Source of the DNA: Ilex aquifolium
Taxonomy: Eukaryota > Streptophyta > Magnoliopsida > Aquifoliales > Aquifoliaceae
Assembly: GCA_951799425.1 (NCBI GenBank)
Contig: OX637402.1
Span: 6,104,001-6,168,000 of the forward strand
Reading direction: 5' to 3'
Length of the DNA stretch: 64,000 nucleotides
Each line of letters begins with the position of its first letter. Positions within the stretch are counted from its first letter, which is position 1. Shown one piece after another: positions 1-54,479 of the stretch. The translations under genes and the position numbers were made by a program. Under the pieces are notes generated by a model. It was not told the DNA's origin. It did no database searches and saw nothing but the letters and a program-made list of their open reading frames with translations.

Positions 1-163
1 TATACATTTTACCATGTATATAATTTAAACATAACACATAATCATGTAGCACATAATCATGTAACAAATAAAACACATAACATGAATGCACATGGAATGC
101 AATGGTGTAAACCCATTCCCCTCAAGCCCTAGGTAAACGTATACCTATGCTCTGATACCAAGC
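1..163 (-). mobile_element. Partial internal region (leader and primer site) cut by the window edge
   Basis: This matches bases 5737-5899 exactly in layout. It is the leader between the gag start and the primer-binding site of the unit whose gag lies left of the window. It contains short AT-rich repeats of the acataatcatgta type and then the primer site. Confidence 0.9.
149..160 (-). other. Primer-binding site for initiator-Met tRNA
   Basis: The minus strand reads TGGTATCAGAGC, the standard plant initiator-Met tRNA complement used by many Ty3/gypsy elements. It lies 3 bp inside the LTR end at 164. The same site recurs just left of every LTR start (5900, 11635, 17371, 23093, 28829, 34565, 40301, 46027). 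It fixes the minus-strand orientation of the array. Confidence 0.93.
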
Positions 164-398
164 TGTGACGCCCCAAAACCCGGGGGTCCTTTATTAACCG
201 TTGACCATCCGTCAACCCGCGGAAATACTCGTGATAGTCGTATAACCCGACACCACGTCATTCACGTGCTTTTAACCGGATTTACCATCCACAAGATCAA
301 TTATACCTCAAATTATGTCCATTTATGTCATAGGAACCAAAGAAAACCAAGCCCAAAAGCATGGCTAAGCATTTTGAAAATTTCAAATTTTTGGAAAA

Positions 399-753
399 CC
401 TTCCGGAAGGTTTTGACTCAACCTTCCGGAAGGTTTGCTCACTGGAAAAGTTCTTCCGGAAGGTTTTTCTTAACCTTCCGGAAGGTTTTGCCTTCTGGAA
501 ATAGATTGAAAAAAATGAAACGTGTCGGCCTTCCGGAAGGTGTACTCAAACCTTCCGGAAGGTTTTGCTCACTGGAAAGGTTCTTCCGGAAGGTTTTTCT
601 TCACCTTCCGGAAGGTTTTGCCTTCTGGAAAATAGATTGAAAATGAGACGTGTCGACCTTCCGGAAGGTGTACTCCACCTTCCGGAAGGTTTTACCTTCT
701 GGACCACAATTCTGCCTTAACCTTCCGGAAGGTGTTAGTGACCTTCCGAAAGG
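399..753. repeat. Cluster of 12 AACCTTCCGGAAGGTT-type palindromes in the LTR
   Basis: Twelve copies of CTTCCGGAAGG, most extended to the 16-bp perfect palindrome AACCTTCCGGAAGGTT, lie in 355 bp. Part of the tract (about 421-510) is repeated about 130 bp further on (about 551-640). The last copy is imperfect. Equivalent clusters are at 6135-6489, 11870-12224, 17606-17960, 23328-23682, 29064-29418, 34800-35154, 40536-40890 and 46262-46616. On the element strand the cluster is near the LTR 3' end, about 235-590 bp before the primer site. The core TTCnnGAA resembles two inverted heat-shock-element half units; any function is unproven. Confidence 0.93.
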
Positions 754-1013
754 TTTTGCCCAGAATTTCTTCCTTCCTTAGTTTTTCAATTCGAATCCGT
801 TTCAATTTGCTTCAAAATCATCCAAAACTTATACAATGAAGTTTCTAACATAAAACATTGTTTGTACAAGTTCTATTACAACCCAATACATATATTTACA
901 TGTCAATATCAAATTTCCTTAAAATTTTTACAAACATTCAAAACAAAGCCACATCCGGCTTTCTTCGTCCTTGAAGCCCGTATGAGGGTCTTCCACCCAT
1001 GCATATCCCACAC

Positions 1014-3274
1014 CTGAAAATGTTGTCCCACGAAGGGTGAGCCACGCTCAATAGGATATCCTCCTACAGAGGCTACTCCCCAACCTAAATGCATATGAAA
1101 TGCGCACATTCAACGATCAACAAGCATCAACCAATCCAACAAGAGTACACACTTCAATGTTAGAAAGCTACCATGCTATGCTATGTCATGCCATGATATG
1201 AGATGGAACTCACTCACGCACCTTATCCCGAGTCTTCCCCGACTCACACAACACAATGCAAAAGCCAATGTGTATGAACCCGTCTATTGACGGAAAAACC
1301 CTCCCAATGATCGTTTGAATTAAAAGTTATATCTTTATAAAATCAAATCATTGTTTGAGGCTACCCATTGAATGGGTGTTTTTATATAACAAAATCTTGT
1401 GTCTTCCTGGGCAACGGATTTTGGAATCGCACCGCCGGCTCCGTGGGCCTATCTACACTTTTTGGACTTGCACCGTCGGAGTGTATGAACCAGTGGTTCC
1501 GGGTTTTTCACCCGAGGGAGTGTCTAGCCCTACTTGCTCTACCCGACACAAGTTTTCCTTATGCAATGCAACCGTGCAACTCAATCGGATCTTCGATCCC
1601 GACTTTCCCGAGTTCACATACCAACCACCAAGATTTGGTGTTTGATCCGCAACACATGCACACACCCACACTCATGCCTATGACCCATGAATGCGATGTC
1701 AACTCACCCACACATACTCATGTCTTATAACCATGAATGTGATGTACCCATGTGAATGCAATGTAATGTACCAATTGCACTATAACCACATGTTCGATAT
1801 GTATGAGTGCCATATGAACAATATCAAGATAAATCTACATATTCATGGTACTTCATATCATAAGCACATAAATACCATAATTCAACACATTATCAATATA
1901 TAGCAAGCATGCCTATATCAACATTTCATCCAATAACCATTTTCAAACATGTTATCACATAAGCATGCAATTAACATAGCAAACTCATCAATACATCATT
2001 CTAGGCATTTAATCAAGGAAGTGATCTAAGTCATTTCTCTAATTATTTTGTAAGTGTTAAGGCTCTAACACCCTTCTTTTCCATACCAACATCTCATATA
2101 AGCAACTAAGGTGAGGAATAATCCCAAATAGGAAGAATCCTACACGTCATCACGTATCACAAGAAATTACTCTAAGTAATTTCTACACCACCATTTCAAG
2201 ATAGGATATATTGTATCCACTTTCAACATCCATTTAATCATGTCACCAACAACAGGTAAAAGCCCCATTTAATCAAGTCACCACCCATATGTAAGAGTCC
2301 TATACAAGGTCTCCTACATCAACCCCTTTTCACATAAACATCATAGCCTGAAATAAGCCCAAAACAGCCCATAAGTTTAACCCAAAACAGTCCGCAATTT
2401 CAGCCTCAAGGCAACCACAATTTCAGTCCCCAAACAACCATAAAAACAGTCAACTAATTAGCCACAAAACAATCCACTAATTAGCCACAAAACATTCCGC
2501 TAATTAACCACAAAACAGTCCCCAAATTAAGCTACATAGCAGCCCCGAAATAGGCTATAAACCAGTCCACTATTTCATTCACTTCCACAAAGATATACAA
2601 GTAACTTCCATATATCAATTGTAAGCTAAAATTTAGCTTAAGTTATTCATATAATCAATTCTTCATTTCCTTAAAAACATACAATTCCAATTGTGAATCA
2701 CACCACCCAAACATGTTATTCCACTTTCGTTCAAATAACAACTTTTATCCTTTAAGGCATTTCATCAAACGCCATATAAGCATAATGTCATGTAACCACA
2801 AGGTATAGCCCACACACATCAATTATCATCATCAAACTCAAGAAATCATATCTAGTGATTTCTACATAACTATACCAAGATAGAATTTATTCTATCCATT
2901 TCCTAATATCCACATATCATAATCCCCCAAGAGAATTATAAAGCAACCACCTCTAAATGTCAATTCCATTTAGAATTTCACTTTACCAATTTTCCCATAT
3001 CCATTTTCTACACTTCAAGTTCCTTCATGAAATTTACCCAACAAGTAAATATATGCACCCATTTCATACCAACCTTGCTTAGCACATTTGGTACCCATTT
3101 CCCACACATAAAATGCATTAGTGGTACATTAAACTAGAGAATGTGATTTAAATCATACCAACCATTCTCAATACCCATTTCACCCAATTAACCACAATAG
3201 GCAAGTGATACACCTACCCATTCCATATAACCTTCCTAGGTTGGAAATAAACCTAAGTAGGAAGAAAACCCTAC
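1014..3274 (-). other. Candidate intron inside the LTR (leader intron)
   Basis: On the minus strand, downstream of the TATA box and a GA-rich leader, CAAGAG is followed by GTAGGGTTTTC, a good plant 5' splice site. At 1014 the minus strand reads AACATTTTCAG followed by GTGTGG, a good 3' splice site. The same layout occurs in the unrelated-length LTR of the inner element at 55548. This is a pattern match only, with no transcript evidence. It recurs in each LTR. Confidence 0.33.
2350..2575. repeat. Degenerate 23-bp tandem repeat in the LTR
   Basis: About five to eight diverged copies of a unit like ccactaattagccacaaaac follow one another, grading into weaker copies on both sides. The tract recurs at the same place in every LTR of the array. 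It is noncoding and looks like local slippage expansion. Confidence 0.75.
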
Positions 3275-3573
3275 CTCTTGTAGCGTGTAGAATCGCCGTG
3301 GGAAGCTCCTAGAACTCAAAGCAAGCTTGAATCCTTCACTTCCAAATTTTCGGCCCTCCAACGTTCGGTGAAAACCGTCGTTTTTGGTACCCACGTGTAG
3401 CCCTCGACGCGTAGAGCAACTCTTGTTCTTGGCCCGAGTCGATTTGAGCGCTAGAACGGAGTAGATCGTAGAGAGAAGGTGGAGTTTTCTCTCATTTTCC
3501 CTCTCTTCTTTTCTCTCGGCTGAAACCGGCTGAAGGGTGAAGGAGAAGTCTGATTTTTCAGACTTTAGGCCCC

Positions 3574-3581
3574 TATTTATA
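3574..3581 (-). promoter_or_regulatory. TATA box of the array LTR
   Basis: The minus strand reads TATAAATA followed by GGGG and, after about 80 bp, a GA-rich tract typical of plant 5' leaders. If real, transcription starts near 3545, leaving a short U3 of about 0.4 kb and an R-U5 of more than 3 kb. The site is kept in every LTR (for example 9310-9317, 15045-15052, 20767-20774). Confidence 0.55.
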
Positions 3582-3970
3582 TTTTTAGGATACTTGGCTC
3601 ACAATTGGCCACATGTCCTATTTAATTTCGGGTCCGTTTTAATCACGAAACGATTAAATTTCGCTCCGGTTTGAGTTCAAAATATTTTTATTTTAACTTG
3701 CCTCTAATATTTCCCCAAACTTTAAAATTTTATAAAAATTTCGTGTACGGGGTCACCCGAGGCCCGTTCGTCTCGTAAAACGCGAAAAATCCGACCATCT
3801 CGGAATTCAACGAAATTTGACGTGGTAACTAGATTTCGCGAGACGAATCCAACGGTGAAATCCGTTTCGTCATTCGAGATCTAGAAAAATTCAGTTTTTC
3901 AACTAGTCCCGAAGTGGCAATTCACCTATTGCCCTTGTTCGTCAAAGTTTAAATTTTCCGGGGTTTCACA

Positions 3971-3987
3971 TTCTTCCCCCCTTAAAA
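3971..3987 (-). other. Polypurine tract of the array element
   Basis: The minus strand reads TTAAGGGGGGAAGAA immediately before the LTR start TGTGAAACC. It is preceded by GGGGACGAAATTCTTTTAAG, a motif typical of the 3' end of Tekay/Del-type elements. It recurs beside each full internal region with one- or two-base variation. Confidence 0.88.
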
Positions 3988-4469
3988 GAATTTCGTCCCC
4001 GAAATTCACACCCACATGCACATTCGACCATATGCATAAGTTACAACATTACTGCCTCACTGTCCCTCATGTATCCGTCTTTCTCCCGGACTAGGTTCTA
4101 GACGCAACCAAGTCCGTCCGTAAAGGCACCACATATCCCATGTACCTCTGTCCCATTTCCGGGACTACTAGAATAGGGGGTAAAGTAACCTTCTTTGTAA
4201 TTTGACAATAGTACTGAAGCATCCCAAGGTGAAGCATTCGGTAGTGAAGTCCTTATTCAAACTAGAGTTCTCACAACTCTACTCGTGTCATTCTATGAGG
4301 AGCCATAGAGTAGACAACATACCGGGGTGTAACTTAACACTGAAGTCTACATCCCAATGTGGAGGCAAACATTCGTAAGCTCCTAAAACTTAAAACATAC
4401 ACACTCTGAGGTGTAAACAGTGACTCGCTGACGATCACAATCACCGACGACTCAGTGTGCCGTCAATCC

Positions 4470-4566
4470 GTCCATCCCAAGGATGACATCAAACCCGACA
4501 TGTCCACGACCCTAAGGTCCATAGTGAGTAGAGTCCCCGAGATCTCAAACTCACAACCGTCATATC
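4470..4566 (-). pseudogene. Retropepsin (protease) remnant of the array element
   Basis: The minus strand encodes a short stretch with the retropepsin C-terminal signature DMSGFDVILGMD, preceded by residues resembling the family's strand before it. Only this scrap of the protease is left; the rest of pol is absent. It is a fossil downstream of gag, where protease sits in intact relatives. It recurs about 500-596 bp right of each LTR end in units 1-8. Confidence 0.72.
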
Positions 4567-4762
4567 TGATCAATGTAGGCCCTAATCCCTAAGGTGGAAT
4601 TCACCCCTGAGGACTCTTCTAGAGTTATAATATTTAAAACTGTACCATGCACAAAACATGAAGAATAACAGTATTTGACACGCTCAAGTCAAATAACACG
4701 TGTACCCATAAATAAGGAATAAGTGATGTACCGTGGGTCGCTGCCTGATCTCCCGACTCACT

Positions 4763-5533
4763 CTATGGTGCAACATCAAAGACCGTTTCCTGGGTCTCCA
4801 ATGTTGTCGCTTCAGAGTCTTGTTCTTGGCCTTGGCCCATACCTTGGCTCATCCGGTCTGATTGCGGAGTCTCCGCACGTGGCGTACTAGGGACTTGCAC
4901 AACGCTCTGTAGTTGGGACTGATTTCCCTGGTCCTTAGTGGAATAGGGAAGAACAATACGTGCCTGTGTGAGTCCCACCGACGACTGGGATTGAGAAGTC
5001 TCGGAACTCTGTGAGGTTTGCCTCAGGGGGCAATCCTTCTTCCTATGGCCCGGTTGTCGACAATAGAAACATGTCTTCTGGCCTCCTTGAAACGTTCCCT
5101 TGAATTTCTTCCCTCCTTGGGACAAAAGATTTTGGGCTTGAACCCGCTCCTGTGATCCATGCCTCTGAGGACAATCCCTCCTCGTATGACCCACTTGGCG
5201 ACAATGATAACATGGCCCCTGCCCCGCTTGGCTGGGAACCCTGAAGTGCCCACTACTTTGGGAGGTTTGCCCTTGGCCTTGGCCTTGATAGCCGCGGCCC
5301 TGCCCCAATGATTCTTGTGGGCTCGATGCCTTTTGCTTTTTCCGTGGCCGTTGATGGCCCATGGAACTTAAACTCCTTTGGATGGCTTGAGCCCCTTGGT
5401 TCAAATTGGCGCTTGCCTGTGCTAGGTTAGCAGCCATCGTACTCACAGCCTCCATATAGGCTTGTTGGTCCAAAGCCGGTAGTGGTTGGTTGTTCCGTCC
5501 ACCGCCTAGACGTCCCCTTCCTCTATATGCCAT
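4763..5533 (-). CDS. Capsid-less gag-like protein with two CCHC knuckles, unit 1
   Basis: This 256-aa protein starts MAYRGRGRLGGGR, a basic RG-rich N-terminus seen in Tekay/Del gag proteins. Residues 24-56 are Ala/Gln-rich and probably helical, and 60-70 are basic (RPRKKQK). Two nucleocapsid knuckles of form CX2CX4HX4C follow: Cys108, Cys111, His116, Cys121 and Cys155, Cys158, His163, Cys168. The tail is rich in Gln and Ser. No Retrotrans_gag capsid domain is present between the N-terminus and the knuckles, and typical gag proteins of this clade are longer. The likely role is nucleic-acid binding, inferred from the knuckles. It has one uninterrupted frame in all eight units. Confidence 0.88.
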   Translation of the reverse strand: MAYRGRGRLGGGRNNQPLPALDQQAYMEAVSTMAANLAQASANLNQGAQAIQRSLSSMGHQRPRKKQKASSPQESLGQGRGYQGQGQGQTSQSSGHFRVPSQAGQGPCYHCRQVGHTRRDCPQRHGSQERVQAQNLLSQGGKKFKGTFQGGQKTCFYCRQPGHRKKDCPLRQTSQSSETSQSQSSVGLTQARIVLPYSTKDQGNQSQLQSVVQVPSTPRAETPQSDRMSQGMGQGQEQDSEATTLETQETVFDVAP

Positions 5534-5899
5534 CTACACACATGTCAAATAGCAATAGAGTACTAACTTAATATCCCAAGGTAGGGATCAAGTTCAAAAC
5601 ATTGAGAATTCTCTCATCGTGTCCCTAGTAGAGCGAGTGTCTCACACTAGTAGACATTTAACCCATGAACTATCCCGTTCATCCTTTTCCGAACCCCCAA
5701 GGTTATGTTTTCTAAACCTAGTGTTCCTCTTTTCCATATACATTTTACCATGTATATAATTTAAACATAACACATAATCATGTAGCACATAATCATGTAA
5801 CAAATAAAACACATAACATGAATGCACATGGAATGCAATGGTGTAAACCCATTCCCCTCAAGCCCTAGGTAAACGTATACCTATGCTCTGATACCAAGC

Positions 5900-8800
5900 T
5901 GTGACGCCCCAAAACCCGGGGGTCCTTTATTAACCGTTGACCATCCGTCAACCCGCGGAAATACTCGTGATAGTCGTATAACCCGACACCACGTCATTCA
6001 CGTGCTTTTAACCGGATTTACCATCCACAAGATCAATTATACCTCAAATTATGTCCATTTATGTCATAGGAACCAAAGAAAACCAAGCCCAAAAGCATGG
6101 CTAAGCATTTTGAAAATTTCAAATTTTTGGAAAACCTTCCGGAAGGTTTTGACTCAACCTTCCGGAAGGTTTGCTCACTGGAAAAGTTCTTCCGGAAGGT
6201 TTTTCTTAACCTTCCGGAAGGTTTTGCCTTCTGGAAATAGATTGAAAAAAATGAAACGTGTCGGCCTTCCGGAAGGTGTACTCAAACCTTCCGGAAGGTT
6301 TTGCTCACTGGAAAGGTTCTTCCGGAAGGTTTTTCTTCACCTTCCGGAAGGTTTTGCCTTCTGGAAAATAGATTGAAAATGAGACGTGTCGACCTTCCGG
6401 AAGGTGTACTCCACCTTCCGGAAGGTTTTACCTTCTGGACCACAATTCTGCCTTAACCTTCCGGAAGGTGTTAGTGACCTTCCGAAAGGTTTTGCCCAGA
6501 ATTTCTTCCTTCCTTAGTTTTTCAATTCGAATCCGTTTCAATTTGCTTCAAAATCATCCAAAACTTATACAATGAAGTTTCTAACATAAAACATTGTTTG
6601 TACAAGTTCTATTACAACCCAATACATATATTTACATGTCAATATCAAATTTCCTTAAAATTTTTACAAACATTCAAAACAAAGCCACATCCGGCTTTCT
6701 TCGTCCTTGAAGCCCGTATGAGGGTCTTCCACCCATGCATATCCCACACCTGAAAATGTTGTCCCACGAAGGGTGAGCCACGCTCAATAGGATATCCTCC
6801 TACAGAGGCTACTCCCCAACCTAAATGCATATGAAATGCGCACATTCAACGATCAACAAGCATCAACCAATCCAACAAGAGTACACACTTCAATGTTAGA
6901 AAGCTACCATGCTATGCTATGTCATGCCATGATATGAGATGGAACTCACTCACGCACCTTATCCCGAGTCTTCCCCGACTCACACAACACAATGCAAAAG
7001 CCAATGTGTATGAACCCGTCTATTGACGGAAAAACCCTCCCAATGATCGTTTGAATTAAAAGTTATATCTTTATAAAATCAAATCATTGTTTGAGGCTAC
7101 CCATTGAATGGGTGTTTTTATATAACAAAATCTTGTGTCTTCCTGGGCAACGGATTTTGGAATCGCACCGCCGGCTCCGTGGGCCTATCTACACTTTTTG
7201 GACTTGCACCGTCGGAGTGTATGAACCAGTGGTTCCGGGTTTTTCACCCGAGGGAGTGTCTAGCCCTACTTGCTCTACCCGACACAAGTTTTCCTTATGC
7301 AATGCAACCGTGCAACTCAATCGGATCTTCGATCCCGACTTTCCCGAGTTCACATACCAACCACCAAGATTTGGTGTTTGATCCGCAACACATGCACACA
7401 CCCACACTCATGCCTATGACCCATGAATGCGATGTCAACTCACCCACACATACTCATGTCTTATAACCATGAATGTGATGTACCCATGTGAATGCAATGT
7501 AATGTACCAATTGCACTATAACCACATGTTCGATATGTATGAGTGCCATATGAACAATATCAAGATAAATCTACATATTCATGGTACTTCATATCATAAG
7601 CACATAAATACCATAATTCAACACATTATCAATATATAGCAAGCATGCCTATATCAACATTTCATCCAATAACCATTTTCAAACATGTTATCACATAAGC
7701 ATGCAATTAACATAGCAAACTCATCAATACATCATTCTAGGCATTTAATCAAGGAAGTGATCTAAGTCATTTCTCTAATTATTTTGTAAGTGTTAAGGCT
7801 CTAACACCCTTCTTTTCCATACCAACATCTCATATAAGCAACTAAGGTGAGGAATAATCCCAAATAGGAAGAATCCTACACGTCATCACGTATCACAAGA
7901 AATTACTCTAAGTAATTTCTACACCACCATTTCAAGATAGGATATATTGTATCCACTTTCAACATCCATTTAATCATGTCACCAACAACAGGTAAAAGCC
8001 CCATTTAATCAAGTCACCACCCATATGTAAGAGTCCTATACAAGGTCTCCTACATCAACCCCTTTTCACATAAACATCATAGCCTGAAATAAGCCCAAAA
8101 CAGCCCATAAGTTTAACCCAAAACAGTCCGCAATTTCAGCCTCAAGGCAACCACAATTTCAGTCCCCAAACAACCATAAAAACAGTCCACTAATTAGCCA
8201 CAAAACAATCCACTAATTAGCCACAAAACATTCCACTAATTAACCACAAAACAGTCCCCAAATTAAGCTACATAGCAGCCCCGAAATAGGCTATAAACCA
8301 GTCCACTATTTCATTCACTTCCACAAAGATATACAAGTAACTTCCATATATCAATTGTAAGCTAAAATTTAGCTTAAGTTATTCATATAATCAATTCTTC
8401 ATTTCCTTAAAAACATACAATTCCAATTGTGAATCACACCACCCAAACATGTTATTCCACTTTCGTTCAAATAACAACTTTTATCCTTTAAGGCATTTCA
8501 TCAAACGCCATATAAGCATAATGTCATGTAACCACAAGGTATAGCCCACACACATCAATTATCATCATCAAACTCAAGAAATCATATCTAGTGATTTCTA
8601 CATAACTATACCAAGATAGAATTTATTCTATCCATTTCCTAATATCCACATATCATAATCCCCCAAGAGAATTATAAAGCAACCACCTCTAAATGTCAAT
8701 TCCATTTAGAATTTCACTTTACCAATTTTCCCATATCCATTTTCTACACTTCAAGTTCCTTCATGAAATTTACCCAACAAGTAAATATATGCACCCATTT

Positions 8801-9706
8801 CATACCAACCTTGCTTAGCACATTTGGTACCCATTTCCCACACATAAAATGCATTAGTGGTACATTAAACTAGAGAATGTGATTTAAATCATACCAACCA
8901 TTCTCAATACCCATTTCACCCAATTAACCACAATAGGCAAGTGATACACCTACCCATTCCATATAACCTTCCTAGGTTGGAAATAAACCTAAGTAGGAAG
9001 AAAACCCTACCTCTTGTAGCGTGTAGAATCGCCGTGGGAAGCTCCTAGAACTCAAAGCAAGCTTGAATCCTTCACTTCCAAATTTTCGGCCCTCCAACGT
9101 TCGGTGAAAACCGTCGTTTTTGGTACCCACGCGTAGCCCTCGACGCGTAGAGCAACTCTTGTTCTTGGCCCGAGTCGATTTGAGCGCTAGAACGGAGTAG
9201 ATCGTACAGAGAAGGTGGAGTTTTCTCTCATTTTCCCTCTCTTCTTTTCTCTCGGCTGAAACCGGCTGAAGGGTGAAGGAGAAGTCTGATTTTTCAGACT
9301 TTAGGCCCCTATTTATATTTTTAGGATACTTGGCTCACAATTGACCACATGTCCTATTTAATTTCGGGTCCGTTTTAATCACGAAACGATTAAATTTCGC
9401 TCCGGTTTGAGTTCAAAATATTTTTATTTTAACTTGCCTCTAATATTTCCCCAAACTTTAAAATTTTATAAAAATTTCGTGTACGGGGTCACCCGAGGCC
9501 CGTTCGTCTCGTAAAACGCGAAAAATCCGACCATCTCGGAATTCAACGAAATTTGACGTGGTAACTAGATTTCGCGAGACGAATCCAACGGTGAAATCCG
9601 TTTCGTCATTCGAGATCTAGAAAAATTCAGTTTTTCAACTAGTCCCGAAGTGGCAATTCACCTATTGCCCTTGTTCGTCAAAGTTTAAATTTTCCGGGGT
9701 TTCACA
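5900..9706 (-). repeat. LTR 2 of the array (3807 bp)
   Basis: Same ends and contents as LTR 1, from which it differs by about five substitutions by eye. It shares a one-base variant near 9207 only with LTR 3. The adjoining purine tract is 1 bp shorter, which explains the 5735-bp spacing to the next LTR. Confidence 0.92.
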
Positions 9707-11634
9707 TTCTCCCCCCTTAAAAGAATTTCGTCCCCGAAATTCACACCCACATGCACATTCGACCATATGCATAAGTTACAACATTACTGCCTCACTGTCC
9801 CTCATGTATCCGTCTCTCTCCCGGACTAGGTTCTAGACGCAACCAAGTCCGTCCGTAAAGGCACCACATATCCCATGTACCTCTGTCCCATTTCCGGGAC
9901 TACTAGAATAGGGGGTAAAGTAACCTTCTTTGTAATTTGACAATAGTACCGAAGCATCCCAAGGTGAAGCATTCGGTAGTGAAGTCCTTATTCAAACTAG
10001 AGTTCTCACAACTCTACTCGTGTCATTCTATGAGGAGCCATAGAGTAGACAACATACCGGGGTGTAACTTAACACTGAAGTCTACATCCCAATGTGGAGG
10101 CAAACATTCGTAAGCTCCTAAAACTTAAAACATACACACTCTGAGGTGTAAACAGTGACTCGCTGACGATCACAATCACCGACGACTCAGTGTGCCGTCA
10201 ATCCGTCCATCCCAAGGATGACATCAAACCCGACATGTCCACGACCCTAAGGTCCATAGTGAGTAGAGTCCCCGAGATCTCAAACTCACAACCGTCATAT
10301 CTGATCAATGTAGGCCCTAATCCCTAAGGTGGAATTCACCCCTGAGGACTCTTCTAGAGTTATAATATTTAAAACTGTACCATGCACAAAACATGAAGAA
10401 TAACAGTATTTGACACGCTCAAGTCAAATAACACGTGTACCCATAAATAAGGAATAAGTGATGTACCGTGGGTCGCTGCCTGATCTCCCGACTCACTCTA
10501 TGGTGCAACATCAAAGACCGTTTCCTGGGTCTCCAATGTTGTCGCTTCAGAGTCTTGTTCTTGGCCTTGGCCCATACCTTGGCTCATCCGGTCTGATTGC
10601 GGAGTCTCCGCACGTGGCGTACTAGGGACTTGCACAACGCTCTGTAGTTGGGACTGATTTCCCTGGTCCTTAGTGGAATAGGGAAGAACAATACGTGCCT
10701 GTGTGAGTCCCACCGACGACTGGGATTGAGAAGTCTCGGAACTCTGTGAGGTTTGCCTCAGGGGGCAATCCTTCTTCCTATGGCCCGGTTGTCGACAATA
10801 GAAACATGTCTTCTGGCCTCCTTGAAACGTTCCCTTGAATTTCTTCCCTCCTTGGGACAAAAGATTTTGGGCTTGAACCCGCTCCTGTGATCCATGCCTC
10901 TGAGGACAATCCCTCCTCGTATGACCCACTTGGCGACAATGATAACATGGCCCCTGCCCCGCTTGGCTGGGAACCCTGAAGTGCCCACTACTTTGGGAGG
11001 TTTGCCCTTGGCCTTGGCCTTGATAGCCGCGGCCCTGCCCCAATGATTCTTGTGGGCTCGATGCCTTTTGCTTTTTCCGTGGCCGTTGATGGCCCATGGA
11101 ACTTAAACTCCTTTGGATGGCTTGAGCCCCTTGGTTCAAATTGGCGCTTGCCTGTGCTAGGTTAGCAGCCATCGTACTCACAGCCTCCATATAGGCTTGT
11201 TGGTCCAAAGCCGGTAGTGGTTGGTTGTTCCGTCCACCGCCTAGACGTCCCCTTCCTCTATATGCCATCTACACACATGTCAAATAGCAATAGAGTACTA
11301 ACTTAATATCCCAAGGTAGGGATCAAGTTCAAAACATTGAGAATTCTCTCATCGTGTCCCTAGTAGAGCGAGTGTCTCACACTAGTAGACATTTAACCCA
11401 TGAACTATCCCGTTCATCCTTTTCCGAACCCCCAAGGTTATGTTTTCTAAACCTAGTGTTCCTCTTTTCCATATACATTTTACCATGTATATAATTTAAA
11501 CATAACACATAATCATGTAGCACATAATCATGTAACAAATAAAACACATAACATGAATGCACATGGAATGCAATGGTGTAAACCCATTCCCCTTAAGCCC
11601 TAGGTAATCGTATACCTATGCTCTGATACCAAGC
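9707..11634 (-). mobile_element. Internal region 2 (1928 bp)
   Basis: Same layout as internal region 1. The leader next to LTR 3 carries two variants (cttaag near 11592 and taatcg near 11605), the first of which recurs only beside LTR 4. Confidence 0.9.
10498..11268 (-). CDS. Capsid-less gag-like protein, unit 2
   Basis: This 256-aa protein is identical to the unit 1 copy, including both CCHC knuckles. The ATG lies about 365 bp downstream of the primer site on the minus strand. Confidence 0.87.
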   Translation of the reverse strand: MAYRGRGRLGGGRNNQPLPALDQQAYMEAVSTMAANLAQASANLNQGAQAIQRSLSSMGHQRPRKKQKASSPQESLGQGRGYQGQGQGQTSQSSGHFRVPSQAGQGPCYHCRQVGHTRRDCPQRHGSQERVQAQNLLSQGGKKFKGTFQGGQKTCFYCRQPGHRKKDCPLRQTSQSSETSQSQSSVGLTQARIVLPYSTKDQGNQSQLQSVVQVPSTPRAETPQSDRMSQGMGQGQEQDSEATTLETQETVFDVAP

Positions 11635-38371: not shown

Positions 38372-40300
38372 TTCTTCCCCCCTTAAAAGAATTTCGTCCC
38401 CGAAATTCACACCCACATGCACATTCGACCATATGCATAAGTTACAACATTACTGCCTCACTGTCCCTCATGTATCCGTCTCTCTCCCGGACTAGGTTCT
38501 AGACGCAACCAAGTCCGTCCGTAAAGGCACCACATATCCCATGTACCTCTGTCCCATTTCCGGGACTACTAGAATAGGGGGTAAAGTAACCTTCTTTGTA
38601 ATTTGACAATAGTACCGAAGCATCCCAAGGTGAAGCATTCGGTAGTGAAGTCCTTATTCAAACTAGAGTTCTCACAACTCTACTCGTGTCATTCTATGAG
38701 GAGCCATAGAGTAGACAACATACCGGGGTGTAACTTAACACTGAAGTCTACATCCCAATGTGGAGGCAAACATTCGTAAGCTCCTAAAACTTAAAACATA
38801 CACACTCTGAGGTGTAAACAGTGACTCGCTGACGATCACAATCACCGACGACTCAGTGTGCCGTCAATCCGTCCATCCCAAGGATGACATCAAACCCGAC
38901 ATGTCCACGACCCTAAGGTCCATAGTGAGTAGAGTCCCCGAGATCTCAAACTCACAACCGTCATATCTGATCAATGTAGGCCCTAATCCCTAAGGTGGAA
39001 TTCACCCCTGAGGACTCTTCTAGAGTTATAATATTTAAAACTGTACCATGCACAAAACATGAAGAATAACAGTATTTGACACGCTCAAGTCAAATAACAC
39101 GTGTACCCATAAATAAGGAATAAGTGATGTACCGTGGGTCGCTGCCTGATCTCCCGACTCACTCTATGGTGCAACATCAAAGACCGTTTCCTGGGTCTCC
39201 AATGTTGTCGCTTCAGAGTCTTGTTCTTGGCCTTGGCCCATACCTTGGCTCATCCGGTCTGATTGCGGAGTCTCCGCACGTGGCGTACTAGGGACTTGCA
39301 CAACGCTCTGTAGTTGGGACTGATTTCCCTGGTCCTTAGTGGAATAGGGAAGAACAATACGTGCCTGTGTGAGTCCCACCGACGACTGGGATTGAGAAGT
39401 CTCGGAACTCTGTGAGGTTTGCCTCAGGGGGCAATCCTTCTTCCTATGGCCCGGTTGTCGACAATAGAAACATGTCTTCTGGCCTCCTTGAAACGTTCCC
39501 TTGAATTTCTTCCCTCCTTGGGACAAAAGATTTTGGGCTTGAACCCGCTCCTGTGATCCATGCCTCTGAGGACAATCCCTCCTCGTATGACCCACTTGGC
39601 GACAATGATAACATGGCCCCTGCCCCGCTTGGCTGGGAACCCTGAAGTGCCCACTACTTTGGGAGGTTTGCCCTTGGCCTTGGCCTTGATAGCCGCGGCC
39701 CTGCCCCAATGATTCTTGTGGGCTCGATGCCTTTTGCTTTTTCCGTGGCCGTTGATGGCCCATGGAACTTAAACTCCTTTGGATGGCTTGAGCCCCTTGG
39801 TTCAAATTGGCGCTTGCCTGTGCTAGGTTAGCAGCCATCGTACTCACAGCCTCCATATAGGCTTGTTGGTCCAAAGCCGGTAGTGGTTGGTTGTTCCGTC
39901 CACCGCCTAGACGTCCCCTTCCTCTATATGCCATCTACACACATGTCAAATAGCAATAGAGTACTAACTTAATATCCCAAGGTAGGGATCAAGTTCAAAA
40001 CATTGAGAATTCTCTCATCGTGTCCCTAGTAGAGCGAGTGTCTCACACTAGTAGACATTTAACCCATGAACTATCCCGTTCATCCTTTTCCGAACCCCCA
40101 AGGTTATGTTTTCTAAACCTAGTGTTCCTCTTTTCCATATACATTTTACCATGTATATAATTTAAACATAACACATAATCATGTAGCACATAATCATGTA
40201 ACAAATAAAACACATAACATGAATGCACATGGAATGCAATGGTGTAAACCCATTCCCCTCAAGCCCTAGGTAATCGTATACCTATGCTCTGATACCAAGC
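38372..40300 (-). mobile_element. Internal region 7 (1929 bp)
   Basis: Same layout as internal region 1. The leader beside LTR 8 has the taatcg variant also seen beside LTRs 3, 4 and 9. Confidence 0.9.
39164..39934 (-). CDS. Capsid-less gag-like protein, unit 7
   Basis: 256 aa, identical in protein sequence to the unit 1 copy. Confidence 0.87.
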   Translation of the reverse strand: MAYRGRGRLGGGRNNQPLPALDQQAYMEAVSTMAANLAQASANLNQGAQAIQRSLSSMGHQRPRKKQKASSPQESLGQGRGYQGQGQGQTSQSSGHFRVPSQAGQGPCYHCRQVGHTRRDCPQRHGSQERVQAQNLLSQGGKKFKGTFQGGQKTCFYCRQPGHRKKDCPLRQTSQSSETSQSQSSVGLTQARIVLPYSTKDQGNQSQLQSVVQVPSTPRAETPQSDRMSQGMGQGQEQDSEATTLETQETVFDVAP

Positions 40301-43300
40301 TGTGACGCCCCAAAACCCGGGGGTCCTTTATTAACCGTTGACCATCCGTCAACCCGCGGAAATACTCGTGATAGTCGTATAACCCGACACCACGTCATTC
40401 ACGTGCTTTTAACCGGATTTACCATCCACAAGATCAATTATACCTCAAATTATGTCCATTTATGTCATAGGAACCAAAGAAAACCAAGCCCAAAAGCATG
40501 GCTAAGCATTTTGAAAATTTCAAATTTTTGGAAAACCTTCCGGAAGGTTTTGACTCAACCTTCCGGAAGGTTTGCTCACTGGAAAAGTTCTTCCGGAAGG
40601 TTTTTCTTAACCTTCCGGAAGGTTTTGCCTTCTGGAAATAGATTGAAAAAAATGAAACGTGTCGGCCTTCCGGAAGGTGTACTCAAACCTTCCGGAAGGT
40701 TTTGCTCACTGGAAAGGTTCTTCCGGAAGGTTTTTCTTCACCTTCCGGAAGGTTTTGCCTTCTGGAAAATAGATTGAAAATGAGACGTGTCGACCTTCCG
40801 GAAGGTGTACTCCACCTTCCGGAAGGTTTTACCTTCTGGACCACAATTCTGCCTTAACCTTCCGGAAGGTGTTAGTGACCTTCCGAAAGGTTTTGCCCAG
40901 AATTTCTTCCTTCCTTAGTTTTTCAATTCGAATCCGTTTCAATTTGCTTCAAAATCATCCAAAACTTATACAATGAAGTTTCTAACATAAAACATTGTTT
41001 GTACAAGTTCTATTACAACCCAATACATATATTTACATGTCAATATCAAATTTCCTTAAAATTTTTACAAACATTCAAAACAAAGCCACATCCGGCTTTC
41101 TTCGTCCTTGAAGCCCGTATGAGGGTCTTCCACCCATGCATATCCCACACCTGAAAATGTTGTCCCACGAAGGGTGAGCCACGCTCAATAGGATATCCTC
41201 CTACAGAGGCTACTCCCCAACCTAAATGCATATGAAATGCGCACATTCAACGATCAACAAGCATCAACCAATCCAACAAGAGTACACACTTCAATGTTAG
41301 AAAGCTACCATGCTATGCTATGTCATGCCATGATATGAGATGGAACTCACTCACGCACCTTATCCCGAGTCTTCCCCGACTCACACAACACAATGCAAAA
41401 GCCAATGTGTATGAACCCGTCTATTGACGGAAAAACCCTCCCAATGATCGTTTGAATTAAAAGTTATATCTTTATAAAATCAAATCATTGTTTGAGGCTA
41501 CCCATTGAATGGGTGTTTTTATATAACAAAATCTTGTGTCTTCCTGGGCAACGGATTTTGGAATCGCACCGCCGGCTCCGTGGGCCTATCTACACTTTTT
41601 GGACTTGCACCGTCGGAGTGTATGAACCAGTGGTTCCGGGTTTTTCACCCGAGGGAGTGTCTAGCCCTACTTGCTCTACCCGACACAAGTTTTCCTTATG
41701 CAATGCAACCGTGCAACTCAATCGGATCTTCGATCCCGACTTTCCCGAGTTCACATACCAACCACTAAGATTTGGTGTTTGATCCGCAACACATGCACAC
41801 ACCCACACTCATGCCTATGACCCATGAATGCGATGTCAACTCACCCACACATACTCATGTCTTATAACCATGAATGTGATGTACCCATGTGAATGCAATG
41901 TAATGTACCAATTGCACTATAACCACATGTTCGATATGTATGAGTGCCATATGAACAATATCAAGATAAATCTACATATTCATGGTACTTCATATCATAA
42001 GCACATAAATACCATAATTCAACACATTATCAATATATAGCAAGCATGCCTATATCAACATTTCATCCAATAACCATTTTCAAACATGTTATCACATAAG
42101 CATGCAATTAACATAGCAAACTCATCAATACATCATTCTAGGCATTTAATCAAGGAAGTGATCTAAGTCATTTCTCTAATTATTTTGTAAGTGTTAAGGC
42201 TCTAACACCCTTCTTTTCCATACCAACATCTCATATAAGCAACTAAGGTGAGGAATAATCCCAAATAGGAAGAATCCTACACGTCATCACGTATCACAAG
42301 AAATTACTCTAAGTAATTTCTACACCACCATTTCAAGATAGGATATATTGTATCCACTTTCAACATCCATTTAATCATGTCACCAACAACAGGTAAAAGC
42401 CCCATTTAATCAAGTCACCACCCATATGTAAGAGTCCTATACAAGGTCTCCTACATCAACCCCTTTTCACATAAACATCATAGCCTGAAATAAGCCCAAA
42501 ACAGCCCATAAGTTTAACCCAAAACAGTCCGCAATTTCAGCCTCAAGGCAACCACAATTTCAGTCCCCAAACAACCATAAAAACAGTCCACTAATTAGCC
42601 ACAAAACAATCCACTAATTAGCCACAAAACATTCCACTAATTAACCACAAAACAGTCCCCAAATTAAGCTACATAGCAGCCCCGAAATAGGCTATAAACC
42701 AGTCCACTATTTCATTCACTTCCACAAAGATATACAAGTAACTTCCATATATCAATTGTAAGCTAAAATTTAGCTTAAGTTATTCATATAATCAATTCTT
42801 CATTTCCTTAAAAACATACAATTCCAATTGTGAATCACACCACCCAAACATGTTATTCCACTTTCGTTCAAATAACAACTTTTATCCTTTAAGGCATTTC
42901 ATCAAACGCCATATAAGCATAATGTCATGTAACCACAAGGTATAGCCCACACACATCAATTATCATCATCAAACTCAAGAAATCATATCTAGTGATTTCT
43001 ACATAACTATACCAAGATAGAATTTATTCTATCCATTTCCTAATATCCACATATCATAATCCCCCAAGAGAATTATAAAGCAACCACCTCTAAATGTCAA
43101 TTCCATTTAGAATTTCACTTTACCAATTTTCCCATATCCATTTTCTACACTTCAAGTTCCTTCATGAAATTTACCCAACAAGTAAATATATGCACCCATT
43201 TCATACCAACCTTGCTTAGCACATTTGGTACCCATTTCCCACACATAAAATGCATTAGTGGTACATTAAACTAGAGAATGTGATTTAAATCATACCAACC

Positions 43301-44097
43301 ATTCTCAATACCCATTTCACCCAATTAACCACAATAGGCAAGTGATACACCTACCCATTCCATATAACCTTCCTAGGTTGGAAATAAACCTAAGTAGGAA
43401 GAAAACCCTACCTCTTGTAGCGTGTAGAATCGCCGTGGGAAGCTCCTAGAACTCAAAGCAAGCTTGAATCCTTCACTTCCAAATTTTCGGCCCTCCAACG
43501 TTCGGTGAAAACCGTCGTTTTTGGTACCCACGCGTAGCCCTCGACGCGTAGAGCAACTCTTGTTCTTGGCCCGAGTCGATTTGAGCGCTAGAACGGAGTA
43601 GATCGTAGAGAGAAGGTGGAGTTTTCTCTCATTTTCCCTCTCTTCTTTTCTCTCGGCTGAAGGGTGAAGGAGAAGTCTGATTTTTCAGACTTTAGGCCCC
43701 TATTTATATTTTTAGGATACTTGGCCCACAATTGGCCACATGTCCTATTTAATTTCGGGTCCGTTTTAATCACGAAACGATTAAATTTCGCTCCGGTTTG
43801 AGTTCAAAATATTTTTATTTTAACTTGCCTCTAATATTTCCCCAAACTTTAAAATTTTATAAAAATTTCGTGTACGGGGTCACCCGAGGCCCGTTCGTCT
43901 CGTAAAACGCGAAAAATCCGACCATCTCGGAATTCAACGAAATTTGACGTGGTAACTAGATTTCGCGAGACGAATCCAACGGTGAAATCCGTTTCGTCAT
44001 TCGAGATCTAGAAAAATTCAGTTTTTCAACTAGTCCCGAAGTGGCAATTCACCTATTGCCCTTGTTCGTCAAAGTTTAAATTTTCCAGGGTTTCACA
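40301..44097 (-). repeat. LTR 8 of the array (3797 bp, short variant)
   Basis: This LTR is 10 bp shorter than the usual form, near 43660, between short direct repeats ggctgaa. LTR 9 has the same length variant, so the two descend from one short copy or were converted. Confidence 0.92.
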
Positions 44098-46026
44098 TTC
44101 TTCCCCCCTTAAAAGAATTTCGTCCCCGAAATTCACACCCACATGCACATTCGACCATATGCATAAGTTACAACATTACTGCCTCACTGTCCCTCATGTA
44201 TCCGTCTCTCTCCCGGACTAGGTTCTAGACGCAACCAAGTCCGTCCGTAAAGGCACCACATATCCCATGTACCTCTGTCCCATTTCCGGGACTACTAGAA
44301 TAGGGGGTAAAGTAACCTTCTTTGTAATTTGACAATAGTACCGAAGCATCCCAAGGTGAAGCATTCGGTAGTGAAGTCCTTATTCAAACTAGAGTTCTCA
44401 CAACTCTACTCGTGTCATTCTATGAGGAGCCATAGAGTAGACAACATACCGGGGTGTAACTTAACACTGAAGTCTACATCCCAATGTGGAGGCAAACATT
44501 CGTAAGCTCCTAAAACTTAAAACATACACACTCTGAGGTGTAAACAGTGACTCGCTGACGATCACAATCACCGACGACTCAGTGTGCCGTCAATCCGTCC
44601 ATCCCAAGGATGACATCAAACCCGACATGTCCACGACCCTAAGGTCCATAGTGAGTAGAGTCCCCGAGATCTCAAACTCACAACCGTCATATCTGATCAA
44701 TGTAGGCCCTAATCCCTAAGGTGGAATTCACCCCTGAGGACTCTTCTAGAGTTATAATATTTAAAACTGTACCATGCACAAAACATGAAGAATAACAGTA
44801 TTTGACACGCTCAAGTCAAATAACACGTGTACCCATAAATAAGGAATAAGTGATGTACCGTGGGTCGCTGCCTGATCTCCCGACTCACTCTATGGTGCAA
44901 CATCAAAGACCGTTTCCTGGGTCTCCAATGTTGTCGCTTCAGAGTCTTGTTCTTGGCCTTGGCCCATACCTTGGCTCATCCGGTCTGATTGCGGAGTCTC
45001 CGCACGTGGCGTACTAGGGACTTGCACAACGCTCTGTAGTTGGGACTGATTTCCCTGGTCCTTAGTGGAATAGGGAAGAACAATACGTGCCTGTGTGAGT
45101 CCCACCGACGACTGGGATTGAGAAGTCTCGGAACTCTGTGAGGTTTGCCTCAGGGGGCAATCCTTCTTCCTATGGCCCGGTTGTCGACAATAGAAACATG
45201 TCTTCTGGCCTCCTTGAAACGTTCCCTTGAATTTCTTCCCTCCTTGGGACAAAAGATTTTGGGCTTGAACCTGCTCCTGTGATCCATGCCTCTGAGGACA
45301 ATCCCTCCTCGTATGACCCACTTGGCGACAATGATAACATGGCCCCTGCCCTGCTTGGCTGGGAACCCTGAAGTGCCCACTACTTTGGGAGGTTTGCCCT
45401 TGGCCTTGGCCTTGATAGCCGCGGCCCTGCCCCAATGATTCTTGTGGGCTCGATGCCTTTTGCTTTTTCCGTGGCCGTTGATGGCCCATGGAACTTAAAC
45501 TCCTTTGGATGGCTTGAGCCCCTTGGTTCAAATTGGCGCTTGCCTGTGCTAGGTTAGCAGCCATCGTACTCACAGCCTCCATATAGGCTTGTTGGTCCAA
45601 AGCCGGTAGTGGTTGGTTGTTCCGTCCACCGCCTAGACGTCCCCTTCCTCTATATGCCATCTACACACATGTCAAATAGCAATAGAGTACTAACTTAATA
45701 TCCCAAGGTAGGGATCAAGTTCAAAACATTGAGAATTCTCTCATCGTGTCCCTAGTAGAGCGAGTGTCTCACACTAGTAGACATTTAACCCATGAACTAT
45801 CCCGTTCATCCTTTTCCGAACCCCCAAGGTTATGTTTTCTAAACCTAGTGTTCCTCTTTTCCATATACATTTTACCATGTATATAATTTAAACATAACAC
45901 ATAATCATGTAGCACATAATCATGTAACAAATAAAACACATAACATGAATGCACATGGAATGCAATGGTGTAAACCCATTCCCCTCAAGCCCTAGGTAAT
46001 CGTATACCTATGCTCTGATACCAAGC
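44098..46026 (-). mobile_element. Internal region 8 (1929 bp)
   Basis: Same layout as internal region 1, with two private CG-to-TG changes in the gag region. Confidence 0.9.
44890..45660 (-). CDS. Capsid-less gag-like protein, unit 8
   Basis: 256 aa, the only copy whose protein differs: residue 130, between the two knuckles, is Gln instead of Arg. Both knuckles are intact. Confidence 0.87.
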   Translation of the reverse strand: MAYRGRGRLGGGRNNQPLPALDQQAYMEAVSTMAANLAQASANLNQGAQAIQRSLSSMGHQRPRKKQKASSPQESLGQGRGYQGQGQGQTSQSSGHFRVPSQAGQGPCYHCRQVGHTRRDCPQRHGSQEQVQAQNLLSQGGKKFKGTFQGGQKTCFYCRQPGHRKKDCPLRQTSQSSETSQSQSSVGLTQARIVLPYSTKDQGNQSQLQSVVQVPSTPRAETPQSDRMSQGMGQGQEQDSEATTLETQETVFDVAP

Positions 46027-49000
46027 TGTGACGCCCCAAAACCCGGGGGTCCTTTATTAACCGTTGACCATCCGTCAACCCGCGGAAATACTCGTGATAG
46101 TCGTATAACCCGACACCACGTCATTCACGTTCTTTTAACCGGATTTACCATCCACAAGATCAATTATACCTCAAATTATGTCCATTTATGTCATAGGAAC
46201 CAAAGAAAACCAAGCCCAAAAGCATGGCTAAGCATTTTGAAAATTTCAAATTTTTGGAAAACCTTCCGGAAGGTTTTGACTCAACCTTCCGGAAGGTTTG
46301 CTCACTGGAAAAGTTCTTCCGGAAGGTTTTTCTTAACCTTCCGGAAGGTTTTGCCTTCTGGAAATAGATTGAAAAAAATGAAACGTGTCGGCCTTCCGGA
46401 AGGTGTACTCAAACCTTCCGGAAGGTTTTGCTCACTGGAAAGGTTCTTCCGGAAGGTTTTTCTTCACCTTCCGGAAGGTTTTGCCTTCTGGAAAATAGAT
46501 TGAAAATGAGACGTGTCGACCTTCCGGAAGGTGTACTCCACCTTCCGGAAGGTTTTACCTTCTGGACCACAATTCTGCCTTAACCTTCCGGAAGGTGTTA
46601 GTGACCTTCCGAAAGGTTTTGCCCAGAATTTCTTCCTTCCTTAGTTTTTCAATTCGAATCCGTTTCAATTTGCTTCAAAATCATCCAAAACTTATACAAT
46701 GAAGTTTCTAACATAAAACATTGTTTGTACAAGTTCTATTACAACCCAATACATATATTTACATGTCAATATCAAATTTCCTTAAAATTTTTACAAACAT
46801 TCAAAACAAAGCCACATCCGGCTTTCTTCGTCCTTGAAGCCCGTATGAGGGTCTTCCACCCATGCATATCCCACACCTGAAAATGTTGTCCCACGAAGGG
46901 TGAGCCACGCTCAATAGGATATCCTCCTACAGAGGCTACTCCCCAACCTAAATGCATATGAAATGCGCACATTCAACGATCAACAAGCATCAACCAATCC
47001 AACAAGAGTACACACTTCAATGTTAAAAAGCTACCATGCTATGGTATGTCATGCCATGATATGAGATGGAACTCACTCACGCACCTTATCCCGAGTCTTC
47101 CCCGACTCACACAACACAATGCAAAAGCCAATGTGTATGAACCCGTCTATTGACGGAAAAACCCTCCCAATGATCATTTGAATTAAAAGTTATATCTTTA
47201 TAAAATCAAATCATTGTTTGAGGCTACCCATTGAATGGGTGTTTTTATATAACAAAATCTTGTGTCTTCCTGGGCAACGGATTTTGGAATCGCACCGCCG
47301 GCTCCGTGGGCCTATCTACACTTTTTGGACTTGCACCGTCGGAGTGTATGAACCAGTGGTTCCGGGTTTTTCACCCGAGGGAGTGTCTAGCCCTACTTGC
47401 TCTACCCGACACAAGTTTTCCTTATGCAATGCAACCGTGCAACTCAATCGGATCTTCGATCCCGACTTTCCCGAGTTCACATACCAACCACCAAGATTTG
47501 GTGTTTGATCCGCAACACATGCACACACCCACACTCATGCCTATGACCCATGAATGCGATGTCAACTCACCCACACATACTCATGTCTTATAACCATGAA
47601 TGTGATGTACCCATGTGAATGCAATGTAATGTACCAATTGCACTATAACCACATGTTCGATATGTATGAGTGCCATATGAACAATATCAAGATAAATCTA
47701 CATATTCATGGTACTTCATATCATAAGCACATAAATACCATAATTCAACACATTATCAATATATAGCAAGCATGCCTATATCAACATTTCATCCAATAAC
47801 CATTTTCAAACATGTTATCACATAAGCATGCAATTAACATAGCAAACTCATCAATACATCATTCTAGGCATTTAATCAAGGAAGTGATCTAAGTCATTTC
47901 TCTAATTATTTTGTAAGTGTTAAGGCTCTAACACCCTTCTTTTCCATACCAACATCTCATATAAGCAACTAAGGTGAGGAATAATCCCAAATAGGAAGAA
48001 TCCTACACGTCATCACGTATCACAAGAAATTACTCTAAGTAATTTCTACACCACCATTTCAAGATAGGATATATTGTATCCACTTTCAACATCCATTTAA
48101 TCATGTCACCAACAACAGGTAAAAGCCCCATTTAATCAAGTCACCACCCATATGTAAGAGTCCTATACAAGGTCTCCTACATCAACCCCTTTTCACATAA
48201 ACATCATAGCCTGAAATAAGCCCAAAACAGCCCATAAGTTTAACCCAAAACAGTCCGCAATTTCAGCCTCAAGGCAACCACAATTTCAGTCCCCAAACAA
48301 CCATAAAAACAGTCCACTAATTAGCCACAAAACAATCCACTAATTAGCCACAAAACATTCCACTAATTAACCACAAAACAGTCCCCAAATTAAGCTACAT
48401 AGCAGCCCCGAAATAGGCTATAAACCAGTCCACTATTTCATTCACTTCCACAAAGATATACAAGTAACTTCCATATATCAATTGTAAGCTAAAATTTAGC
48501 TTAAGTTATTCATATAATCAATTCTTCATTTCCTTAAAAACATACAATTCCAATTGTGAATCACACCACCCAAACATGTTATTCCACTTTCGTTCAAATA
48601 ACAACTTTTATCCTTTAAGGCATTTCATCAAACGCCATATAAGCATAATGTCATGTAACCACAAGGTATAGCCCACACACATCAATTATCATCATCAAAC
48701 TCAAGAAATCATATCTAGTGATTTCTACATAACTATACCAAGATAGAATTTATTCTATCCATTTCCTAATATCCACATATCATAATCCCCCAAGAGAATT
48801 ATAAAGCAACCACCTCTAAATGTCAATTCCATTTAGAATTTCACTTTACCAATTTTCCCATATCCATTTTCTACACTTCAAGTTCCTTCATGAAATTTAC
48901 CCAACAAGTAAATATATGCACCCATTTCATACCAACCTTGCTTAGCACATTTGGTACCCATTTCCCACACATAAAATGCATTAGTGGTACATTAAACTAG

Positions 49001-49823
49001 AGAATGTGATTTAAATCATACCAACCATTCTCAATACCCATTTCACCCAATTAACCACAATAGGCAAGTGATACACCTACCCATTCCATATAACCTTCCT
49101 AGGTTGGAAATAAACCTAAGTAGGAAGAAAACCCTACCTCTTGTAGCGTGTAGAATCGCCGTGGGAAGCTCCTAGAACTCAAAGCAAGCTTGAATCCTTC
49201 ACTTCCAAATTTTCGGCCCTCCAACGTTCGGTGAAAACCGTCGTTTTTGGTACCCACGCGTAGCCCTCGACGCGTAGAGCAACTCTTGTTCTTGGCCCGA
49301 GTCGATTTGAGCGCTAGAACGGAGTAGATCGTAGAGAGAAGGTGGAGTTTTCTCTCATTTTCCCTCTCTTCTTTTCTCTCGGCTGAAGGGTGAAGGAGAA
49401 GTCTGATTTTTCAGACTTTAGGCCCCTATTTATATTTTTAGGATACTTGGCCCACAATTGGCCACATGTCCTATTTAATTTCGGGTCCGTTTTAATCACG
49501 AAACGATTAAATTTCGCTCCGGTTTGAGTTCAAAATATTTTTATTTTAACTTGCCTCTAATATTTCCCCAAACTTTAAAATTTTATAAAAATTTCGTGTA
49601 CGGGGTCACCCGAGGCCCGTTCGTCTCGTAAAACGCGAAAAATCCGACCATCTCGGAATTCAACGAAATTTAACGTGGTAACTAGATTTCGCGAGACGAA
49701 TCCAACGGTGAAATCCGTTTCATCATTCGAGATCTAGAAAAATTCAGTTTTTCAACTAGTCCCGAAGTGGCAATTCACCTATTGCCCTTGTTCGTCAAAG
49801 TTTAAATTTTCCGGGGTTTCACA
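46027..49823 (-). repeat. LTR 9, right-hand terminal LTR of the array (3797 bp)
   Basis: This LTR has the same 10-bp length variant as LTR 8 and about six private substitutions. It ends ggggtttcaca at 49823 and is followed by gcttgtctatag, which is not the purine tract found after the other LTRs. On the minus strand this is the 5' LTR end that met target DNA. The next five bases, GCTTG (49824-49828), are the candidate target duplication; its partner would be left of the window. Confidence 0.92.
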
Positions 49824-50036
49824 GCTTGTCTATAGAAATGGGGCGTGAGTAGTTACTTATACCCTTCCGTAAAAGGTGAACATATGTATACTATTGGTTA
49901 GATTGGAAATGCTGATGTTTTATTCATATATTTATTTATATATATATTATACGCTTCGTGCATGATACATCGATGTACGTAATTTCGGTGTTGTGCTTGG
50001 AATTATGTCATCGATGCATCATCAACCTGCTGGTTA

Positions 50037-54470: not shown

Positions 54471-54479
54471 AATATCTAA

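Follow-up and report, generated by a model that had tools for sequence, protein, structure and literature searches.

A 64,000-nucleotide stretch of Ilex aquifolium DNA (assembly GCA_951799425.1, contig OX637402.1, positions 6,104,001 to 6,168,000 of the forward strand; hereafter, the window) carries a tandem array of a long terminal repeat (LTR) retrotransposon, in which nine complete LTRs and eight complete internal regions (INT) alternate in strict register up to position 49,823. The array most probably descends from a non-autonomous element that inserted here and was then grown and reshuffled in place by exchange between its LTRs. Variants are shared mainly by neighbouring units, and some combinations of LTR markers require either exchange or repeated mutation.

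Layout and extent of the array

Self-alignment of the window at an offset of one unit yielded a single unbroken match of 44,112 aligned columns with 99.81% identity, and an offset of eight units gave 99.47% identity over 3,970 columns. A preliminary description of the sequence had put identity at 99.7-99.9% by eye, slightly above this measured range; its register of nine LTRs and eight internals was borne out by self-alignment and edge motifs alike. LTR edges were located by motif, with nine exact starts, eight exact ends and one end carrying a single mismatch. Neighbouring interiors share one LTR, and LTRs and interiors join without intervening sequence. The LTRs measure 3,807 bp, except for LTR4 (3,793 bp) and LTR8 and LTR9 (3,797 bp), and the internals 1,929 bp, except for INT2 (1,928 bp). 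Consecutive LTR starts are spaced 5,736 bp apart in five out of eight steps, the other three spacings (5,735, 5,722 and 5,726 bp) being due to a small deletion in an LTR or internal. The unit is about 5.7 kb long, two thirds of it LTR. INT4 (21,164-23,092), LTR5 (23,093-26,899), INT6 (32,636-34,564) and INT7 (38,372-40,300), all on the minus strand, were placed by their edge motifs; the remaining parts are located below. Chance cannot account for a pattern of such length and identity, and the term satellite, applied in the preliminary description, is apt for an arrangement in strict tandem register.

The previously proposed span of 1-49,823 proved exact on its right side, where the array stops at the very end of LTR9; position 1, in turn, is merely the window edge, and the left end of the array lies beyond it. 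The window contains about 8.7 units, a lower bound for the array that agrees with the earlier count of at least 8.7 units with shared LTRs. Bases 1-163 (minus strand) belong to one more internal (INT0), truncated by the window edge to its PBS-side (primer-binding site) tail, which is identical to the corresponding 163 bp of four of the eight internals and differs from the other four by one or two mismatches. Searching the right flank within the window for copies of the unit returned a sole match of 34 bp, at the PBS.

Anatomy and coding capacity of the repeated element

The array element is oriented on the minus strand and displays the hallmarks of an LTR retrotransposon, namely TG..CA LTR ends (TGTGA...TCACA) with a PBS and a polypurine tract (PPT) beside the LTRs. 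The PBS (minus strand, GCTTGGTATCAGAGCATAGG), which we take to be of the initiator-methionine tRNA type, adjoins the LTR in all eight internals; in INT8 it occupies 46,007-46,026, directly next to LTR9. The purine tract (minus strand, AAGGGGGGAAGAA; 44,098-44,110 in INT8, directly next to LTR8) is exact in five internals and carries a one-base change in INT2, INT5 and INT6. The motifs TGGTATCAGAGC (PBS) and AAGGGGGG (PPT) flank the LTRs in all eight interiors.

A gag-like open reading frame (ORF) of 256 amino acids (aa) is open in every internal, from INT1 (3,971-5,899, minus strand, 1,929 bp) to INT8 (44,098-46,026, minus strand, 1,929 bp). Its protein is the same in seven internals, the INT8 copy (44,890-45,660, minus strand) differing by one amino acid. 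Pfam reported zf-CCHC in two stretches of the INT8 ORF (E 9.9e-11), corresponding to two CCHC zinc knuckles, found at residues 108 and 155 of the INT1 copy; a capsid domain was not found in the INT8 ORF by the same means. No pol ORF of at least 80 aa was seen in the unit, and in the rightmost unit the seven further ORFs of at least 80 aa were all without a Pfam match at E up to 0.1, which led us to reject captured genes as content of that unit. Similarly, the C-terminal protein of a second LTR element in the right flank (described below), used as a probe for pol remains, matched nothing in INT8 or LTR9. Rfam returned no match at gathering scores over 38,372-64,000, a range that covers LTR8 and LTR9, and 5S or another known structured RNA was rejected on this basis. 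A tRNA gene scan using the bacterial code found none in the window.

Elements known as TR-GAG have two LTRs and gag but no pol, and LARD elements have two LTRs, lack pol and are non-coding. Going by its sequence features, the array element is best called a putative non-autonomous Ty3/gypsy-type element that retains a gag remnant, and each unit could encode the predicted 256-aa gag-like protein. Its PBS, purine-tract context and zinc knuckles resemble those of the nested flank element, with whose gag knuckles the array ORF aligns weakly (26% identity, E 3e-4). A relationship to Tekay, a Ty3/gypsy chromovirus lineage recognised by its type of reverse transcriptase or by an integrase with chromodomain, is possible and serves as a lead on the lineage. 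As a separate observation, the LTR contains eight to nine copies of the perfect palindrome CCTTCCGGAAGG inside imperfect repeats of 53 bp and about 130 bp, at 46,258-46,620 and the equivalent place in the other LTRs, near the PBS-side LTR end.

Variants among units and probable growth of the array

Aligning the units revealed 22 variant events in the LTRs and nine in the internals. Of those nine, some at INT columns 1-4 are misplaced pieces of the one-base deletion that adjoins the purine tract in INT2 (9,707-11,634, minus strand). Eight events occur in at least two units, comprising seven substitutions and one 10-bp deletion. Among the LTRs, column 370 is common to LTR3 and LTR4, column 1466 to LTR6 (28,829-32,635, minus strand) and LTR8, column 3308 to LTR2 and LTR3, column 3436 to LTR1 and LTR2, and the 10-bp deletion to LTR8 and LTR9. 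Among the internals, column 4, beside the purine tract, is common to INT5 (26,900-28,828, minus strand) and INT6, which show no substitutions against each other, column 1889 to INT2 and INT3 (15,442-17,370, minus strand), and column 1903 to INT2, INT3, INT7 and INT8. Six out of seven two-carrier events link direct neighbours (permutation p=0.00052, with INT column 4 assigned to INT5 and INT6; five out of six, p=0.00185, before this correction, which left every conclusion as it was). In the same line, differences between LTRs grow with their distance in the array (Mantel r=0.49, p=0.0036), and three out of ten informative LTR site pairs failed the four-gamete test.

Some LTRs look chimeric. LTR3 (11,635-15,441, minus strand, 3,807 bp) carries column 370, in common with LTR4, on the left and column 3308, in common with LTR2, on the right, while columns 1889 and 1903 are common to INT2 and INT3. 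A single duplication in tandem, brought about by a crossover within an LTR, would leave markers of this kind. LTR2 (5,900-9,706, minus strand, 3,807 bp), which has column 3308 in common with LTR3 and 3436 with LTR1, displays the same marker polarity. LTR8 (40,301-44,097, minus strand, 3,797 bp), sharing column 1466 with LTR6 and the deletion with LTR9, has the opposite polarity, which conversion or unit loss could leave. The 14-bp deletion of LTR4 (17,371-21,163, minus strand, 3,793 bp) and the 10-bp deletion of LTR8 and LTR9 each removed one arm of short direct repeats. Private substitutions are most numerous in LTR9 (46,027-49,823, minus strand, 3,797 bp), the outermost LTR on the right and the 5' LTR of the array, which has six; LTR1 (164-3,970, minus strand, 3,807 bp), placed by edge motifs and variants, has three. 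Array edges are often richest in private substitutions.

Mean divergence amounts to 0.13% for the LTRs and 0.12% (corrected) for the internals. At a rate of 1.3e-8 per site per year, as in rice, this corresponds to about 50 thousand years, and the most different LTR pair to about 110 thousand; these ages are rough, because CG sites are enriched for C-to-T-type changes (8 of 18, p=0.0025, leaving out one alignment artefact; 8 of 19, p=0.004, including it). This enrichment suggests that the DNA is, or has been, methylated.

The strict register and near identity of the units would equally follow if a long concatemer, derived from rolling-circle amplification of a one-LTR circle, from read-through transcripts or from recombined cDNA, had been inserted in one step and had then changed by mutation only. 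For rice tandems that have a single target duplication, insertion as a tandem has been considered possible (PMC11899658). Such a history predicts almost only private variants, whereas the array shows eight shared events, and three of its LTR site pairs fail the four-gamete test. When star histories were simulated, a mean of 0.03 shared sites arose, or 0.26 when CG sites received 40% of the mutations, and six or more were reached in none of 20,000 runs under either setting, compared with seven shared substitutions in the array. One-step amplification followed by independent mutation only was therefore rejected on the strength of the neighbour-shared variants and four-gamete failures, and we regard concatemer insertion as very unlikely; it is viable only as a founding step with later exchange in place. 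The same applies to amplification through a one-LTR circle, one of two routes named in the preliminary description, which could have founded the array but cannot by itself yield shared variants. The other route, unequal crossing-over between LTRs, gains support from the neighbour-shared variants and the chimeric-looking LTRs. Two further alternatives overlap with growth by LTR exchange. That a short multimer, two or three units long, was retrotransposed and later extended in place through LTR exchange is a tentative option: both steps are held possible, and not exclusive, in the literature (PMC11899658, PMC7215508), but the window holds no positive evidence of a multimeric founder. Comparably uncertain, and not what we would expect, is growth chiefly by non-allelic gene conversion or break-induced replication instead of reciprocal unequal crossing-over. 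The patchy markers 3436, 1466 and INT 1903 resemble conversion tracts, and maize CRM-derived arrays have been proposed to grow by gene conversion (PMC3648361); however, the markers of LTR2 to LTR4 also fit a crossover inside the LTR, and a single haplotype does not separate the two processes.

That units were inflated in number or mis-ordered during assembly must also be considered, as assembling an array this large is difficult and ours was judged from the assembly alone. All eight complete units are nonetheless distinct, units 5 and 6 differing by one column and all other pairs by at least five, and different deletions mark LTR4 alone and the LTR8-LTR9 pair. The longest exact repeat, sought at the offset of each of the 36 possible LTR-start pairs, spans 5,324 bp. 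Since the units differ, accurate reads above that length would place uniquely, making the unit order believable if the assembly used such reads. The concern is weakened, not removed; the array is real in this assembly, and an artefact appears highly improbable.

Several observations weigh against growth by LTR exchange as we propose it. We found no single crossover order that fits all markers, so that crossovers must be supplemented by conversion patches, by longer exchanges or by recurrent change; specifically, markers 3436 (LTR1, LTR2), 1466 (LTR6, LTR8) and INT 1903 (INT2, INT3, INT7, INT8) are unexplained by a single crossover series. The internals show a weak distance trend (Mantel r=0.39, p=0.040 corrected; r=0.37, p=0.052 before), and none of their three site pairs failed the four-gamete test. 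The inner LTR7 (34,565-38,371, minus strand) carries five private substitutions, nearly as many as LTR9. Finally, the analysis covers one haplotype, in a window that excludes the left end of the array and its target duplication.

With these points taken into account, growth by LTR exchange would have proceeded as follows. A non-autonomous Ty3/gypsy-type element with 3.8-kb LTRs and a 1.9-kb interior would have landed next to, or within, another element of the Ty3/gypsy type. Since its LTRs are nearly identical and constitute two thirds of the unit, sister chromatids or homologues could misalign, and exchange between them would then have added whole LTR-internal units, either through unequal crossing-over or through break-induced or conversion-type repair within the LTR. 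Ongoing exchange would have reshuffled and partly homogenised the units, leaving at least 8.7 of them in a satellite-like arrangement. We infer that exchange also founded the array, entry as a short multimer being possible, and the array is presumably a by-product without function.

Genomic setting, related systems and significance

The array sits among nested retrotransposons. To its right, on the plus strand, lies a Ty3/gypsy-type element (49,824-54,938), beside or in which the array is located. This element contains reverse transcriptase and RNase H, a PBS-like site near 50,983 and a protease match that is weak and falls below the Pfam cut-off; it resumes at 62,546-64,000 (plus strand) with the integrase core. 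The Pfam scan covered eight of the 13 listed flank ORFs. The order protease, reverse transcriptase, RNase H, integrase is typical of Ty3/gypsy elements. The array possibly lies inside an LTR of this flank element, of which the window would hold a single copy. Recurring short motifs, such as a 41-bp unit at 50,357-50,473, occupy 50,037-50,660 beside the array, ahead of the PBS-like site. The five bases to the right of LTR9, GCTTG, also start the internal sequence on the opposite strand, a coincidence that we take as chance.

A third LTR element (54,939-62,545, plus strand) is nested in the flank element. Its LTRs of about 2.1 kb (54,939-57,034 and 60,377-62,545) are accompanied by a 5-bp target duplication, AGAAA, and it encodes a gag that has both a capsid domain and zinc knuckles, as well as a Tf2-1-like SH3 domain. 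Its PBS is of the same kind as that of the array, and the purine-tract context is similar (TTTCG-GGACGAAA ... AAGGGGGG). Two of its five ORFs of at least 100 aa were scanned, neither of which is a reverse transcriptase. Degenerate tandem repeats of about 30 and about 155 bp lie between its gag and C-terminal ORF (59,097-59,602).

Tandem LTR structures have been described before, and at greater lengths than the two or three units that the preliminary description gave as known, an understatement of a literature that includes up to seven LTRs in Wukong tandems of maize (PMC4528315), up to 12 repeats in Cassandra arrays (PMC7215508) and the Solanum verrucosum arrays (PMC13232507). In rice, 266 potential tandem LTR structures were reported across a pangenome, where they are described as common and enriched for Tekay, and tandem elements were also found in Arabidopsis, almond and cotton with IDENTAM (PMC11899658). 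Like the Ilex array, the IDENTAM tandems consist of alternating LTRs and internals with shared LTRs, and are mostly Ty3/gypsy and mostly recent; the two loci that the study presents closely comprise two internals and three LTRs (PMC11899658), whereas the array described here has at least eight complete internals and a short, defective interior. The authors give arguments against an origin from two independent insertions that recombined, leaving insertion as a tandem versus recombination in place undecided (PMC11899658).

Cassandra and Wukong, which belong to the terminal-repeat retrotransposons in miniature (TRIMs), similarly alternate many LTRs with short interiors, and recombination has been proposed for both (PMC7215508, PMC4528315). 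TRIMs are, however, miniature, and Cassandra contains 5S sequence in its LTR and has no coding capacity (PMC7215508). The Ilex LTR, by comparison, is 3.8 kb long, with no 5S rRNA-like sequence recognised by Rfam in LTR8 or LTR9 (scan of 38,372-64,000), and its interior encodes a gag-like protein. Tandem kilobase units of LTR-retrotransposon sequence also make up satellites of potato and Sobo (PMC9659126) and centromeres of S. verrucosum, among them the Tekay-derived cen10 unit with a GAG domain (PMC13232507). The S. verrucosum centromeres measure 0.6-1.7 Mb, are CENH3-bound and have units of 1.7-4.1 kb, not described as whole LTR-internal units in the available text (PMC13232507), whereas the Ilex array, known from sequence alone, extends over the roughly 50 kb seen, with a 5.7-kb unit and both LTR edges intact. 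The CRM1TR and CRM4TR arrays of maize, attributed to illegitimate recombination and then conversion, likewise grew from an LTR-bearing unit via recombination or conversion; their unit joins a partial LTR and an untranslated region through a deletion, in contrast to the complete LTR and PBS-to-PPT interior found here (PMC3648361). Lathyrus satellites took a different route, deriving from tandem repeats inside LTR elements (PMC7004042). Overall, the Ilex array is a long, clean case of an already published type of structure, with unusually legible LTR exchange.

It is conceivable, if rather unlikely, that the array represents an early stage on the way from retrotransposon to centromeric or pericentromeric satellite, with whole units, open gag-like frames, some 50-100 thousand years of exchange and a long homogenised block far to the left of the window. 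The sole hint that may point toward a centromeric or heterochromatic role is the CG-site enrichment of C-to-T-type changes. How short tandem LTR elements become long satellites is an open question, left undecided even at the best-studied locus (PMC11899658). The array in I. aquifolium is long enough, and its units are different enough, for exchange to be read directly from shared variants. It provides a concrete case of continued LTR-LTR exchange and a locus at which comparing haplotypes within the species could decide how the array was founded.

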